The translations under genes and the position numbers were made by a program. The notes under the pieces are model-generated. The model made no database searches and was not told where the DNA came from. It saw only the letters and a list, made by a program, of their open reading frames with translations. A DNA stretch of 64,000 bases from Bacteroidota bacterium (lineage in GTDB: Bacteria > Bacteroidota > Bacteroidia > Chitinophagales > Saprospiraceae): assembly GCA_024642665.1 (NCBI GenBank), contig JAHEAR010000006.1, forward strand, positions 41,416-105,415, given 5' to 3'. The number at the start of each line of letters is the position of its first letter. Position 1 is the first letter of the stretch. Positions 132 to 6,143 of the stretch are shown here, in pieces.

Positions 132-1253
132 TCATTCGTACAAATGCCCCCGATAGTGGTCAACGGCTTCTCCGGACGTTGTGCTATAAGACCCTATGGC
201 ATCTGCCGTAAGACAACTATGCACCGGCAGCCAAAGTGATAAATCTCCGGGTTTACATAAGCTGAATGTCTCCTTATTGCACTGGACAATCCCATGTTCC
301 TGAGAGAGCGAAACTAAAACAGGATTGGATGATACATTTTCTGTGGACCATCCGCTTTCCGTGCTATCCACCATTCTTCCAAAGATTTTTTTTCCATCGC
401 CTGCAAGCAGAAAGTCCTTTGAAAAATGAATTGCACCGCCATAAATTACCCATTGGTTTCGCTCCGGATGCACAGCAACAACAGGACATGCCATAGCCAC
501 AGCAATATCATCGAATCTGCAAGCGCCAATTTCTTCCTGCATCAGATCATAAAACACGTAGTTACCCGGTCTCAACTCATCCACTACACCAAAGTCTTCC
601 ACCATCGAAGCCCCGGGTGTATCTCCAAGAGATACTTTTATGTACGGATAACTTGACAGATATTGCGATTTTAAATTCAATAAAATGCGTAGCGATTCAT
701 CATAGACCACCTGGACCTCTGCCTGTGATCGCTTTTGATAACTATGCCCTGCATGCGCCAGAAATCCACTAAAGTGCAAGTGCGAATAATTGTCGATGCG
801 ATGGAGTATCTCATCAATGGCTTGAATATTTTGAAATCCCAGGCCGGTTCGATGGGTGCCAACATCAATCTTTATCCAGAGAGAAATTGGATGATTTGTT
901 TTTTTTCCAAGTTCATCGACCGTCATGGCATCCATCACGAGTAGTCCAAGATGTGCTTTTGAAGCCAATGCATTGATCACGTTAATCTCACGTATATTAA
1001 CAGGAAATGCGATCGTTATATCCTGCCAACCAAAATGTGAGAAATATTGTGCCATGCCTACAGAAGAGACGGTTATTTTTTCAATTCCCATTTCTCTAAA
1101 CCACTCACCAATCATACCTGATTGATGGGTTTTAAAATGTGGTCGAAGGTCAACTCCCTGTTGCTTTGCTTTTTCCTTCAGGAGGTAGATATTGCGTCGG
1201 CATATCTCGCGATCCAGTAGTAATGTTGGCTTGGATACACTTGCTAAATTCAT
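132..1253 (-). CDS. D-threonine aldolase / D-serine dehydratase-like PLP enzyme
   Basis: The 373-aa protein has the fold type III alanine-racemase-like N-terminal domain and the C-terminal D-serine dehydratase-like domain. The PLP lysine is probably Lys41 in RPHFKTH. Near the C-terminus the HSC motif (His345, Cys347) matches the zinc-binding His/Cys pair of eukaryotic-type D-serine dehydratases and metal-dependent D-threonine aldolases. The expected reaction is cleavage or dehydration of a D-hydroxy amino acid in the cytoplasm; the exact substrate cannot be read from sequence. The gene lies 41 bases downstream of the Rrf2 gene on the same strand, so the two may be co-transcribed. The start is an ATG at 1253, and the length is typical for the family. 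Confidence 0.85.
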   Translation of the reverse strand: MNLASVSKPTLLLDREICRRNIYLLKEKAKQQGVDLRPHFKTHQSGMIGEWFREMGIEKITVSSVGMAQYFSHFGWQDITIAFPVNIREINVINALASKAHLGLLVMDAMTVDELGKKTNHPISLWIKIDVGTHRTGLGFQNIQAIDEILHRIDNYSHLHFSGFLAHAGHSYQKRSQAEVQVVYDESLRILLNLKSQYLSSYPYIKVSLGDTPGASMVEDFGVVDELRPGNYVFYDLMQEEIGACRFDDIAVAMACPVVAVHPERNQWVIYGGAIHFSKDFLLAGDGKKIFGRMVDSTESGWSTENVSSNPVLVSLSQEHGIVQCNKETFSLCKPGDLSLWLPVHSCLTADAIGSYSTTSGEAVDHYRGHLYE

Positions 1254-1294: not shown

Positions 1295-1738
1295 CTATCT
1301 GTTATTGTTATTAATAACCACTTTTGGATCATTCATTTCTCTGGCCAGAGCCTCAAGCGATTTCTGTCCGAGCATCCCTAATAATTGCACTTTGATTTTT
1401 GCATAATCAGCATGCATCGGACAAGGATTTATTTCAGAGCATTCACTTAATCCCAATATGCAACCCGAAATCATGTGCTCCGTATCCAGCAAGGTCAGTA
1501 CTTTAAGCAATGATTTCTTTTTGGCCTGATCGGTGAGATAAAATCCACCGGAAGGACCTGTCACAGAACTGATCAATTTATTTCCGTGCGTAAGTTTTTG
1601 CAAAATCTTTGCCGTAAATGATTTGGGCGAGTCAATGGCTACAGACAATTCTACAATCCCTATTTTATGGTCTTCTGAGCTATTCTGAGCAAGATAAATC
1701 AGTGCGCGTAACGCATACTCAGTTGATTTTGAAAACAT
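1295..1738 (-). CDS. Rrf2-family transcriptional regulator, NsrR/IscR-like
   Basis: A 147-aa Rrf2 protein with an N-terminal winged helix (about 1-70, starting MFSKSTEYALRAL). Three cysteines, Cys93, Cys100 and Cys106, are spaced C-x6-C-x5-C and resemble the Fe-S cluster triad of NsrR and IscR. NsrR is an NO-sensing repressor whose cluster is destroyed by NO (established for the family). The gene is divergent from the NO-reductase/dismutase-family gene at 2006 with 267 bases between them, and an inverted repeat sits in that gap. Inference: it senses NO or redox state and represses the divergent gene and possibly itself. IscR-like or other redox roles remain possible because the first Cys spacing is one or two residues longer than in characterised NsrR proteins. 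Confidence 0.87.
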   Translation of the reverse strand: MFSKSTEYALRALIYLAQNSSEDHKIGIVELSVAIDSPKSFTAKILQKLTHGNKLISSVTGPSGGFYLTDQAKKKSLLKVLTLLDTEHMISGCILGLSECSEINPCPMHADYAKIKVQLLGMLGQKSLEALAREMNDPKVVINNNNR

Positions 1739-2005: not shown

Positions 2006-4396
2006 ATGGAATCTAACTCCAGGGGAAACGTAGTCAATGACAATGGCACAACAAAAAGCATGTCATATATCATGAACACCAAAAACTGGTGGGGACCGCT
2101 AACTTTCATTTTGATCATCAGTCTGGCAGGTGTGGGAATGATTGGCTTTCAAACCTACCATGATGCTCCTCCAATGACCGGATTTGTTTCACCGGACGGT
2201 AATATGATGGCCTCGAAAGAATCTATTATTGCCGGACAGATCATATTCCACAAATACGCTTTGATGGAATATGGAAGTTTTTTTGGCGATGGGGCACAAC
2301 GTGGACCTGACTTCACTGCGGAAGCACTACATCTGGTTACTACTTTCATGAATGAGTATCGCATCGAGTCATTCACCGAAGAGAATGAGCGCACCCCGAG
2401 TGATCTTGAAACCCGAATCATCGGTGAACAAGTGAAGGCCGAACTCAAAGAAAACAGATACAAAAAAGAATCAAACTCCGTAACCTTATCCCCTGATCAA
2501 GCCTATGCGCTAAACAAGCTTAATGAGTACTACCTCAATCTTTATATTGACAAAAACACGGATAGCAGCTTTCCACCGGTTGGTTACATCACAGACCGAC
2601 AGGAAGTATCCAATCTGAGTAATTTCTTCTTTTGGGGAGCCTGGATTTGTGTCACTGAAAGACCCGGAAGCCATAATAGTTACACCCATAACTGGCCGTT
2701 TGATCCGCAGGCGGGAAATACACCGACCTCACCGGTGATCGTCTGGAGTGTCCTCGGCTTACTTGGCTTTGTTTTAGCCTGTGGACTAGTACTTTATTAT
2801 ATCGGCCAGTACAATCAATTATCAAATAAATTTTTCAAGCCGCCGGTGAGGGATTTATTTACCTTGGAAAAAGTAAAAAACTTTGCCCCTACACAAACAC
2901 AAAGAGCTACATATAAATTTTTCTTTGTTGCTATTCTTCTCTTCTTTTTACAAGTTTGCAGTGGGGTTGTAACCATAAATGATTTCGTAGATTTCCTTGG
3001 TTATATCGGTATCCATATTGCCGGAGCAGTGCCTGTCACTATTTCACGCAGTTGGCATCTAATGCTATCCTTGTATTGGATTTCCACTTGCTGGATCGCC
3101 TCCTCCATATTTATTCTTCCGATTCTATCAAAAAAGGAAGTGCCGGGTCAAAAGGGATTGATCAATATTCTTTTTATCCTGCTCTTTGTGCTGGTGGGAG
3201 GATCGCTTGTCGGGATGGTCATGGGGCCACTAGGTTTAATGGGAAAGTGGCATAATTTTTTTGGTCATCAGGGCTGGGAATTTGTCGACTTTGGAAAGGC
3301 GTATCAAATATTATTGATGGGCATCTTCATGCTTTGGGGCATTGTGGTCTACAGAGGTATCAAACCATCCTTAATAAAGCATGAGCCATGGAATCTTCCC
3401 AATTGGATCATGTACTCCGTGATAGGTATCCCGCTATTGTTTATTTCCGGCTTTGTTGCCCAACCTGAAACCAATTTTGTCATTGCTGATTTCTGGCGAT
3501 GGATGGTAATTCATATGTGGGTTGAAGCCTTCTTCGAGGTTTTTATAACAGTGATTGTAAGTTACCTAATGGTATTGATGGGATTGGTCAGTCGACAAGC
3601 GGCTATACGAGTCGTCTATTTTGCAACTATTTTATTTTTAGGAACTGGTTTGCTAGGTATCTCCCACAATTTTTACTGGAATGCCAAACCTGTTGCCACC
3701 ATGGCTTTAGGTAGTGTTTTTTCAACGCTACAATTTGTTCCACTAATTCTGCTGACGGTAGAAGCCTGGCGATTTAAAAACATGCCCAGACTTGCTGTCG
3801 GAGATGTGGCTTATAAAGATCTGGGTGCATTTGGGTTTTCAGAAGTTTTCTTATTCCTTATCGCCGTTAACTTCTGGAATTTCTTTGGGGCCGGTGTTTT
3901 AGGCATAATCATCAATCTGCCAATCATGAATTATTTTGAACACGGTACTTATCTGACCATCAATCATGCACATGCAGCGCTTATGGGTGTATATGGAAAC
4001 ATCTCATTGGCTGCTTTTCTTTTTGCTTCGAAGCTGTTGCTGAAACCTGGTCAATGGAATAAGCGAATCATTAAAACTTCGTTTTGGTGTATCAATATCG
4101 GGCTTATGTTAATGGTGATTCTTGATCTTTTCCCAGCCGGTATATTTCAGTTCAAATCTGTAGTAGACAATGGACTTTGGTATGGTCGCTCAATGCTCTT
4201 TATGGAGGGAGACATATTCCATATGTTTACCTGGTTAAGAGGCATAGGTGCAAGTGTATTCTTGTTTGGAGGTGTCATGCCTCTTGTCTGGTTTGTTATC
4301 ACAAGAATTAATTCAGTCAAACCTTTCGACCCAATCGCATCAGATGTTCTTTTGGAAAATGAAAAAGAAATTCCGGTAGAAGCAGAAACCGCCTAA
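2006..4396 (+). CDS. Quinol NO reductase-family protein, putative nitric oxide dismutase (Nod)
   Basis: This 796-aa heme-copper-superfamily membrane protein has the qNOR layout: an N-terminal anchor, a soluble heme-less cytochrome c-like domain (about 50-240), then a NorB-like 12-helix core. Conserved residues include heme-ligand His351, FeB-ligand His503 with Glu507, His554, and His654/His656. Departures from canonical qNOR (Geobacillus numbering, recalled) are His560 to Asn555, Glu581 to Gln576, and quinol-site His328 to Asn325, Glu332 to Asp329, Phe336 to Tyr333 and Asp746 to about Ala749. This combination is what was described for Nod of Methylomirabilis, proposed to dismutate 2 NO to N2 and O2. 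The divergent Rrf2 gene and the operator-like repeat suggest NO-responsive control. The start is an ATG at 2006 (a later ATG is at 2060). Family certain; Nod activity inferred. Confidence 0.92.
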   Translation: MESNSRGNVVNDNGTTKSMSYIMNTKNWWGPLTFILIISLAGVGMIGFQTYHDAPPMTGFVSPDGNMMASKESIIAGQIIFHKYALMEYGSFFGDGAQRGPDFTAEALHLVTTFMNEYRIESFTEENERTPSDLETRIIGEQVKAELKENRYKKESNSVTLSPDQAYALNKLNEYYLNLYIDKNTDSSFPPVGYITDRQEVSNLSNFFFWGAWICVTERPGSHNSYTHNWPFDPQAGNTPTSPVIVWSVLGLLGFVLACGLVLYYIGQYNQLSNKFFKPPVRDLFTLEKVKNFAPTQTQRATYKFFFVAILLFFLQVCSGVVTINDFVDFLGYIGIHIAGAVPVTISRSWHLMLSLYWISTCWIASSIFILPILSKKEVPGQKGLINILFILLFVLVGGSLVGMVMGPLGLMGKWHNFFGHQGWEFVDFGKAYQILLMGIFMLWGIVVYRGIKPSLIKHEPWNLPNWIMYSVIGIPLLFISGFVAQPETNFVIADFWRWMVIHMWVEAFFEVFITVIVSYLMVLMGLVSRQAAIRVVYFATILFLGTGLLGISHNFYWNAKPVATMALGSVFSTLQFVPLILLTVEAWRFKNMPRLAVGDVAYKDLGAFGFSEVFLFLIAVNFWNFFGAGVLGIIINLPIMNYFEHGTYLTINHAHAALMGVYGNISLAAFLFASKLLLKPGQWNKRIIKTSFWCINIGLMLMVILDLFPAGIFQFKSVVDNGLWYGRSMLFMEGDIFHMFTWLRGIGASVFLFGGVMPLVWFVITRINSVKPFDPIASDVLLENEKEIPVEAETA

Positions 4397-4485: not shown

Positions 4486-4568
4486 TTCTTTGACCTGTAA
4501 GCTACTACCTGTATAAATTAATGAGCAGTCCCTTCCGGAATGCCTACTTTCGCGGAAAGAATTCGAAG

Positions 4569-6143
4569 ATGAATCGCAATTTGATAAAGCACAAACTTAT
4601 ACTCACATTGACCCTAATTTCTTTGGTGATATTCGCTTCTGCCCAGAATATCCTGATCACCGATCAGGGTTTCCCCAATGAGCCTTCCATTATGATGGAT
4701 CCGCAAAACCCCAATATAATCCTCGCCGGAGCTAACATCAATAAATATTATGTGAGCCTGGATACCGGTCGAACATGGACAGGCAATTCCTTGCAATCAC
4801 CCTATGGGGTCTGGGGCGATCCTGCTATTGCCGTTGACAAGCATGGCGATTTTTACTTCTTTCACCTTTCCAATCCACAGGACGGAAACTGGATCGACAG
4901 GATCGTTTGCCAGAAAACATCAGATCGAGGAAATACCTGGACAGATGGTTCGTACACCGGATTAAACGGAACAAAAGCACAGGACAAACAATGGTTTGCT
5001 TTTGATCCGGAGGATAATACCATTTATCTCACCTGGACACAATTTGATGATTACGGGAGCAGCAATACTGGTGATTCAAGCTCGATTATGTTTTCAAAAT
5101 CTTTGGATGCCGGTGATACATGGTCTCCTGCAAAACGAATTAATCGGATCAATGGAGACTGCATCGATAGTGATGACACTGTAGAAGGAGCAGTGCCCAC
5201 GGTTGGACCTAATGGTGAGATCTATGTCGCGTGGGCCGGACCGGAAGGAATTGTTTTTGATCGATCGCTGGATGGCGGAGAAACATGGCTCGAGGAAGAC
5301 ATCCAGGTAGATCCTATGCCTACCGGATGGGATTACAGAATATCAGGCATCAATCGATCAAATGGTTTGCCCATCACGATTTGTGATTTAAGCAATGGCC
5401 CGAATCGAGGGGCGATCTATATCAATTGGTCAGATCAACGAAATGGAATCAATGATACAGATATCTGGTTGGCCAAATCGGTTGATGGAGGAGATACCTG
5501 GTCTTCACCTGTTCGGGTCAATGACGATGAAACCGGTCATCAACAATTTTTCACCTGGATGGCAATTGATGAGACAACAGGGTATCTCTATTTTGTTTTT
5601 TATGACCGACGCGATGCAGGAAGTGACTCCACGCATGTCTATATGGCTGTATCGCAAGACGGAGGAAACACCTTTCTCAACCGTCGTATCAGTGAAGAAG
5701 CATTTGTGCCCAATGATGGGGTTTTCTTTGGAGACTATACCAATCTGACGGTGCATGATGGCATCATCAGGCCCATTTGGACAAGATTACATGAAGGAAA
5801 ATTGAGTCTGTGGACTCACCTGACCACGGCAGAAGAATTAATCACTTCCACTACTTCACCATCAGGATTGTCCTCAAAAGCTACCTTTGAAAATTATCCA
5901 AATCCCGCTTCAGGTCTTATATATATTTCCTATAAAATCCACAACAGATCACACGTCAGCCTTTCCATTCTAAACAGCAATGGTATGGTTATTAAAAATA
6001 TAATCTCGAATGAAATGCGAGGGTATGGAAAATATGTTGAAGAAATCAATACCGATGATTTACGCATTCCTCCGGGAGTATATTATATCCATTTAGAAGT
6101 CGATGGTAAATTGCATACGGAGAGACAAGTGGTGGTAGAGTAA
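4569..6143 (+). CDS. Secreted sialidase-like BNR-repeat protein with T9SS type A sorting domain
   Basis: About 524 aa from the ATG at 4569, which directly precedes a signal peptide (MNRNLIKHKLILTLTLISL...SAQ). An upstream in-frame ATG at 4521 would add 16 residues in front of the signal and is less likely. The body holds at least six Asp-box/BNR motifs (SLDTGRTW, SDRGNTW, SLDAGDTW, SLDGGETW, SVDGGDTW, SQDGGNTF), which indicate a sialidase-type beta-propeller. The last 80 or so residues (NYPNPASG...PPGVYYIHLE...) form a type A T9SS C-terminal sorting domain, so it is exported across the outer membrane. No full sialidase catalytic set was recognised, so glycosidase activity is uncertain. It ends 15 bases before the convergent ABC-F gene. 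Confidence 0.85.
   Translation: MNRNLIKHKLILTLTLISLVIFASAQNILITDQGFPNEPSIMMDPQNPNIILAGANINKYYVSLDTGRTWTGNSLQSPYGVWGDPAIAVDKHGDFYFFHLSNPQDGNWIDRIVCQKTSDRGNTWTDGSYTGLNGTKAQDKQWFAFDPEDNTIYLTWTQFDDYGSSNTGDSSSIMFSKSLDAGDTWSPAKRINRINGDCIDSDDTVEGAVPTVGPNGEIYVAWAGPEGIVFDRSLDGGETWLEEDIQVDPMPTGWDYRISGINRSNGLPITICDLSNGPNRGAIYINWSDQRNGINDTDIWLAKSVDGGDTWSSPVRVNDDETGHQQFFTWMAIDETTGYLYFVFYDRRDAGSDSTHVYMAVSQDGGNTFLNRRISEEAFVPNDGVFFGDYTNLTVHDGIIRPIWTRLHEGKLSLWTHLTTAEELITSTTSPSGLSSKATFENYPNPASGLIYISYKIHNRSHVSLSILNSNGMVIKNIISNEMRGYGKYVEEINTDDLRIPPGVYYIHLEVDGKLHTERQVVVE

Follow-up and report, generated by a model that had tools for sequence, protein, structure and literature searches.

A putative nitric oxide dismutase in a Saprospiraceae genome that appears to share an operator candidate with a nitrous oxide reductase operon

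The window, i.e., the whole stretch of 64,000 nucleotides that was analyzed, carries an intact open reading frame, with an ATG start and without internal stop, for a putative nitric oxide dismutase (Nod). A regulator gene is divergent from it, and a palindrome lies in the intergenic region. The features discussed here are:

132-1253, minus strand: D-serine dehydratase/alanine racemase-like enzyme, a nod neighbor with no evident NO link
1295-1738, minus strand: Rrf2-family regulator, NsrR-like, divergent from nod, with a C-X6-C-X5-C motif (PF02082, E 9e-20)
1799-1822, no strand: 24-bp palindromic operator candidate between rrf2 and nod, the top-scoring site in the 64 kb
2006-4396, plus strand: nod, putative nitric oxide dismutase of the qNOR fold, 796 aa (open reading frame, domains, residues, tree and AlphaFold2 model)
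4521-6143, plus strand: BNR-repeat protein with a Por secretion tail, a nod neighbor with no evident NO link
L142:3382-9707, beyond the window on its contig (C64), some 34 kb upstream of nod: nos operon of clade II with genes for cytochrome c, NosZ, NosL, NosD, ABC and membrane proteins, of which the ABC and membrane genes were named by eye

The Nod protein contains the domains PF22085 (NorB cytochrome c-like) and PF00115 (COX1), and none of the NCBIfam models matches it. Its cytochrome c-like N-terminal domain is without the CXXCH heme c motif, a property that it has in common with the qNORs 3AYF, 8BGW and 6L3H, along with the fold and the remaining histidines. The top PDB match by phmmer is 3AYF, the qNOR of G. 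stearothermophilus (E 3e-156), and this is also the structure closest to the AlphaFold2 model (TM 0.85/0.89), which was built from a 32-sequence alignment and has a pLDDT of 83 and a pTM of 0.85.

Despite the common fold, the qNOR residues His560, Glu581, Glu332 and Asp746 are all altered in the window protein. The original prediction had read it as a qNOR-family protein with the residue pattern of Nod, in which the FeB ligand His560 is replaced by Asn555 and Glu581 by Gln576, and both replacements are confirmed by the printed phmmer alignment to 3AYF, read by hand, from which the residue equivalences were taken. In an alignment of 116 rows (92 Nod-side, of which 81 are distinct over residues 60-720, and 24 canonical qNOR), these two positions are Asn and Gln in 92/92 Nod-side rows and His and Glu in 24/24 canonical rows, which excludes chance or sequencing error. 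L066 and L082 (broken frames) and the canonical L027 (internal stop) were left out of these rows. In-frame stops in nod copies lie inside the gene in L066 and L082, and near the C-terminus in L004, which is the same gene as L102.

The alignment to 3AYF also agrees with the predicted changes at the quinol site, where N325, D329, Y333 and A749 take the positions of His328, Glu332, Phe336 and Asp746, and with the retention of H503, E507 and H554 (His508, Glu512 and His559 in 3AYF). Where a qNOR is recognized by its residues, the window protein thus has N325, D329 and A749 at the quinol site and N555 and Q576 at the FeB and catalytic positions. Across the family, two of the predicted quinol-site changes need refinement. 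The Glu332 equivalent is lost in 92/92 Nod-side rows and the Asp746 equivalent in all 90 that have a residue there, so these losses are family-wide, while the Phe336 change fails as a diagnostic because position 333 varies in both groups (F 42, Y 31, I 8 and others in Nods; F 15 and L 9 in qNORs). The 29 of 92 Nod-side rows that retain His328 almost all belong to the Chitinophagaceae/Cyclobacteriaceae type. Five other conserved histidines are present in 92/92 Nod-side rows, and the stretch 551-577 is almost invariant among Nods.

The tree suggested as a check places the window protein with Nods and apart from qNORs, in a set of rows without the NC10 and HdN1 Nods. It was made with IQ-TREE (quick search, SH-aLRT) from 66 rows (47 Nod, 18 canonical and 1 ungrouped), and a branch with support 100 splits the 47 Nod rows from the 18 canonical qNOR rows; the root is the midpoint and some branches are long. 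Residues, fold (best match 3ayf) and tree together bear out the Nod-type reading, and by these comparisons the window gene is almost certainly a genuine Nod-clade member of the qNOR-derived membrane proteins.

Putative Nods were first described in Muricauda ruestringensis, a Flavobacterium of the Bacteroidota, in M. oxyfera and in HdN1 (Ettwig 2012; PMC3413370). The putative Nod of M. ruestringensis, from the same phylum as the window, is described there with the same two replacements (Asn for His, Gln for Glu) and with a lost quinol site; this species was not among our loci, and its congeners L073-L075 (Muricauda sp.), 70.6-72.3% identical to the window protein, stood in for it. They fall in the same tree group, which has 29 rows and includes Muricauda, Robiginitalea, Maribacter and Saprospiraceae. 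The Nods of M. oxyfera (DAMO_2434, DAMO_2437) and HdN1, compared by published description, have the same family-defining residues. The Chitinophagaceae/Cyclobacteriaceae-type Nods (L094-L119), with which Sediminibacterium and Algoriphagus may be compared (PMC10264387), have N555, Q576 and the Glu332 and Asp746 losses in common with the window Nod, but are only about 53-57% identical to it and, unlike it, retain His328.

Nod-clade matches occur in 14/199 Saprospiraceae genomes, two of them fragmentary (G540, G543), and in 5/395 Bacteroidota genomes in a draw across the phylum. The one congener in the Saprospiraceae draw, 94% complete, showed no Nod. Among the best 80 of 314 relatives, the loci for which carriers were named, nod is found in Muricauda, Maribacter, Robiginitalea, Cerina, Hydrotalea, Flavihumibacter, Indibacter, Cecembia and Algoriphagus, among others, with cultured isolates in Muricauda, Robiginitalea, Hydrotalea and Cecembia; M. 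oxyfera and HdN1 are not named among these 80. Presence of nod in Bacteroidota agrees with previous reports of the gene in Sediminibacterium and Algoriphagus metagenome-assembled genomes (PMC10264387) and of 66 nod-bearing genomes that include a Bacteroidota clade (PMC13386854). Among L056, L064 and L090, Nods from bins named Thermoanaerobaculia and Chlorobiota fall within the Bacteroidota group, by transfer or misbinning, and Bacteriovoracaceae carries a more diverged Nod. At L077:10615-12957, a second Nod-type protein lies in tandem with nod; its identity to the window protein is about 40%, yet by eye it has the His-Asn and Gln pattern too, and it represents a divergent Nod-type lineage on a long branch. 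Plasmid matches have 31.7-35.2% identity among the matches listed (30 of 318). No Nod was found in viral contigs, scanned with peptide patterns, or in phages, and since a nod-like gene borne by a virus has been described (PMC8115048), such scans can miss these genes.

The regulator beside nod has the Rrf2 fold (PF02082) and three cysteines that could hold an Fe-S cluster, as in NsrR. It scores 31.2 bits against a cut-off of 182 for the NCBIfam NsrR equivalog, and we therefore name it Rrf2, NsrR-like, and not NsrR. By its sequence, the protein may sense NO. Of the 51 loci with full flanks, 33 have an Rrf2 gene at most 3 kb from nod, compared with 5 such genes in 480 kb at distances above 4 kb, as counted with a profile built from the neighbors themselves, and the three-Cys motif is present in 52/52 of the nod-neighbor Rrf2 frames. 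Such proximity is also seen for canonical qNOR, where an Rrf2 gene lies within 1.5 kb in 8/20 cases vs 31/63 for nod. Parts of this arrangement have been described, as NsrR is reported beside nod in Cecembia, with a possible role in NO detoxification (PMC13386854), and nos clusters of clade II in a metagenome from sediment contain Rrf2 genes (PMC6264515). A further Rrf2 gene of the window's genome, whose cysteine motif is similar, precedes the cbb3 oxidase genes (L146:3958-9422), and no site scoring at least 16 lies directly before it.

The palindrome between rrf2 and nod has the consensus ATTTAAGATAAAATAcTCTTAAAT. When the matrix is built without the window, site 1799-1822 scores 26.0 and the next in the 64 kb scores 15.3, while none of 60 Markov shuffles of the window reaches a score of 22. 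The palindrome is found upstream of nod in 47/75 loci vs 2/75 downstream controls, with a threshold set on the controls, and in 44/75 vs 1/75 by leave-one-out. It does not match the known NsrR operator gATGyAT-N5-ATrCATc (PMC1274295) and is a different palindrome. A relaxed FNR-type pattern occurs upstream of nod in 2/75 loci vs 1/75 controls, and no box of this type stands out. Because the rrf2 gene and the site adjoin, the Rrf2 protein is the likely ligand of the palindrome.

The same palindrome recurs before other genes of nitrogen oxide metabolism. In the window's own genome, it sits 10 bp ahead of the leading gene of the nos operon (L142:9718), with another copy at L142:2413. In the sister genome G433, a norC-norB-nirS operon has it 20 bp ahead of norC; norB and nirS were identified there by sequence searches, and norC by eye. 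It is found within 400 bp upstream of 10/25 canonical Bacteroidota qNORs, 8 from one genus and 2 from another. For nosZ, we analyzed 41 Saprospiraceae nos regions, comprising all 14 nod-bearing genomes and 27 of the 58 with nosZ but without nod (6 cNOR-like, 21 with neither). Within 2.2 kb upstream, 25/41 have the palindrome with a first matrix and 29/41 with a second. With the second, it is present in 18/184 stretches of the same length that lie over 3 kb away from nod, and in 0/26 in the rest of the window. The idea that the palindrome is richer before nosZ in nod-bearing genomes was rejected, as it is not more frequent there with either matrix (first: 6/14 vs 19/27, the latter made up of 4/6 cNOR-like and 15/21 with neither; second: 8/14 vs 21/27). 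It thus marks a general N-oxide regulon, in which nod appears to occupy the place that an NO reductase (NOR) has elsewhere. Genes named for NO stress also follow the palindrome in relatives (ScdA/RIC, 4 matches; truncated globin, 1), as do genes for anaerobic NrdD, class II ribonucleotide reductase (RNR) and peroxidases. These comparisons suggest that nod and the nos operon are apparently under a common NO sensor.

The NosZ of the window's genome is well above the TIGR04246 cut-off (937 bits vs 625), and nosZ accompanies nod across the family. It is present in 14/14 nod-bearing Saprospiraceae genomes vs 58/185 others (Fisher P 2.7e-7), and by genus in 12/12 vs 40/100 (P 4.7e-5), with kinship controlled roughly. 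Among genomes of this family without nod, nosZ occurs in 15/15 with a cNOR-like match, i.e., 25-29% identity to the catalytic part (short in G452), and in 42/169 with neither. Of 50 genomes behind the 80 named loci (the best 80 of 314 relatives), chosen mainly outside Saprospiraceae, 42 have nosZ; the eight without it are those of L046, L056, L077, L081, L082, L084, L096 and L113. Some of the named genomes repeat those of the other sets (L059 = G395 and L076 = G396 by nosZ coordinates, and L102 = G383). In the phylum draw, nosZ is found with nod in 4/5, with cNOR-like matches in 8/13, with canonical qNOR in 9/33 and with none in 108/344, the weak-match genomes G135, G242 and G340 being counted as none. 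Some Bacteroidota qNORs share the upstream site of nod, but unlike Nod, qNOR lacks the nosZ link. Previous work noted nosZ in some nod-bearing genomes (PMC5723336).

Neither NirK, NirS, qNOR nor cNOR was found in the window's genome, which is 98% complete, and Nod is the sole NOR-family protein found there (G000). PF00115 matches three proteins of the genome: Nod itself, a CcoNO fusion of the cbb3 type, and a subunit I that is aa3-like and scores under the cut-off of its model. As NirK and NirS were not found, we rejected the idea that this genome encodes the whole pathway of oxygenic denitrification, although a missed gene is possible at this completeness. This differs from M. oxyfera, a methanotroph which has NirS and for which no NosZ is identified in PMC6094997 and PMC3413370, while the window's genome has NosZ. 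Of 12 nod-bearing Saprospiraceae genomes searched, G482 has NirK and G433 a strong NirS, with weak partial PF02239 matches in G483 and G534. A NirK-like or NirS gene is present in 17 of the 50 named genomes at E 1e-40 (NirK-like in 15, 11 of them over the cut-off, and NirS in 3). A strong nirK or nirS match is thus absent from 10/12 and 33/50, respectively. The regulon suggests that nod in Bacteroidota takes the place of an NO reductase, in most cases accompanied by nosZ and lacking nirK and nirS, which points to NO scavenging.

We propose that Nod is an NO-removal enzyme under an NO-responsive Rrf2 regulon, and that it probably works by dismutation, without external electrons, and supplies O2 to oxidases. 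As nirK and nirS were not found, the NO probably comes from outside. NO from neighbors would attack the Fe-S cluster that the Rrf2 repressor is predicted to hold, and the loss of repression would free the operator at 1799-1822 and the same site before the nos operon, so that both are switched on together. Nod would then bind two NO at heme b3 and FeB and rearrange them to N2 and O2, and the O2 would be taken up by the cbb3 or the aa3-like oxidase. The sensing, the repression and the use of NO as substrate are what we infer from the arrangement of genes and sites. NO removal under an NO regulon is very likely the role of this gene, while for dismutation as the chemistry the chances seem slightly better than even: the altered quinol site, FeB ligand His560 and catalytic Glu581 make rearrangement to N2 and O2 the likeliest reaction. 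Whole-cell studies of nod-bearing organisms have given indications of dismutation (PMC3413370, PMC13386854); PMC3413370 reviews evidence for O2 from nitrogen oxides and terms the dismutase function speculation, and PMC13386854 lists indications both for and against, with no Nod isolated and characterized by 2026. In PMC6094997, this characterization is likewise described as still to come.

Several of our observations speak against dismutation. A pure dismutase has no need of an N2O reductase, which here is apparently co-regulated, and the co-occurrence with nosZ (14/14; 42/50) would be expected of an enzyme that forms N2O. NrdD is an O2-sensitive enzyme, and its apparent co-regulation with nod in some relatives (6 matches in 5 loci) is awkward near an O2 source. 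Together with the site that nod shares with NORs, the tie to nosZ and the nearby NrdD genes favor reduction to N2O, or at least leave room for it. Nod might then be an NO reductase that forms N2O with electrons from some donor, with NosZ of the same regulon completing NO to N2O to N2, which we consider less likely than dismutation. Such an enzyme would fit the upstream site common to nod, norCB, qNOR and nos, the lack of another NOR-family protein in G000, and the contrast between Saprospiraceae with nod or a cNOR-like match, which all have nosZ, and those with neither. It would also fit the absence of a nosZ link for canonical qNOR in the phylum draw (9/33 vs 108/344 with none), and a similar argument was made for ocean nod-like genes from N2O profiles (Fuchsman 2017; PMC5723336). 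However, Glu332, Asp746, His560 and Glu581 are lost throughout and no heme c motif has been gained, which leaves no visible electron entry. In addition, nosZ is common also without NOR or nod (42/169), so a common habitat or common regulation may account for the link. If the enzyme did form N2O, a Bacteroidota 'Nod' would not mean dark oxygen.

Alteration of both an active-site ligand and the catalytic acid could also mean that Nod is a qNOR relic which binds or senses NO without turnover, for NO buffering or signaling. We find this improbable, as loss of catalysis is hard to square with the near-invariant stretch 551-577, five other histidines kept in 92/92 rows and the persistence of the gene in many genera. 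It is barely credible that the reading by eye went astray and the protein is a plain quinol-dependent NO reductase: its top PDB matches are qNORs, but the tree (support 100) and the residue counts place it outside the canonical group, and this family reading was rejected.

Dismutation under the Rrf2 regulon remains our preferred reading. In its widest form, nitrite-reductase-less Bacteroidota would dismutate the NO of their neighbors, controlled by an Rrf2 regulon that senses NO and drives nosZ as well, with the O2 going to cbb3 or aa3-like oxidases in anoxic sediment; we put this forward tentatively, as possible and not as probable. The cell would then breathe the NO of other organisms as oxygen, and within a conserved NO regulon of Bacteroidota, Nod would serve detoxification and respiration instead of methane or alkane oxidation. 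Whether Nod makes O2 matters for the nitrogen cycle, as nod genes serve as signs of dark oxygen production (PMC10264387). The Nod family, its presence in Bacteroidota (since 2012) and Rrf2 genes beside nod or nos are already known, each partly. The shared site that would wire nod to nos and the quantified tie to nosZ are possibly new; a shared nod-nos operator was not found in the titles and abstract openings of papers listed by searches for nod or Bacteroidota with nosZ, Rrf2 or NsrR.

The surroundings of nod in relatives hold further genes that touch on NO and oxygen chemistry. At the Chitinophagaceae-type loci L099, L100, L101, L102, L103, L105 and L108, nod is divergent from genes on the minus strand, at about 5-8 kb, for a NorC-like cytochrome c and a COX1-family protein of 460-490 aa, and several of these loci have the palindrome before the cytochrome gene; the COX1-family copy of L105 scores under every NCBIfam cut-off. 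Oxygen-independent ribonucleotide reductases are also found near nod, as NrdD with a radical-SAM gene (L044, L052, L062, L094, L113, L114) or as class II RNR (L071, L085). Several of these loci carry the palindrome. The presence of the O2-sensitive NrdD is odd beside an O2-making enzyme. Genes of the PAP2 type, haloperoxidase-like by eye and just under the Pfam cut-off, lie near nod in L048 (13681-15069), L052, L053 and L085, and genes for animal haem peroxidases in L043 (6003-7913) and L070. These adjoining genes are found mostly in Saprospiraceae, some of them with the palindrome, and might indicate a link to H2O2 or O2 chemistry.
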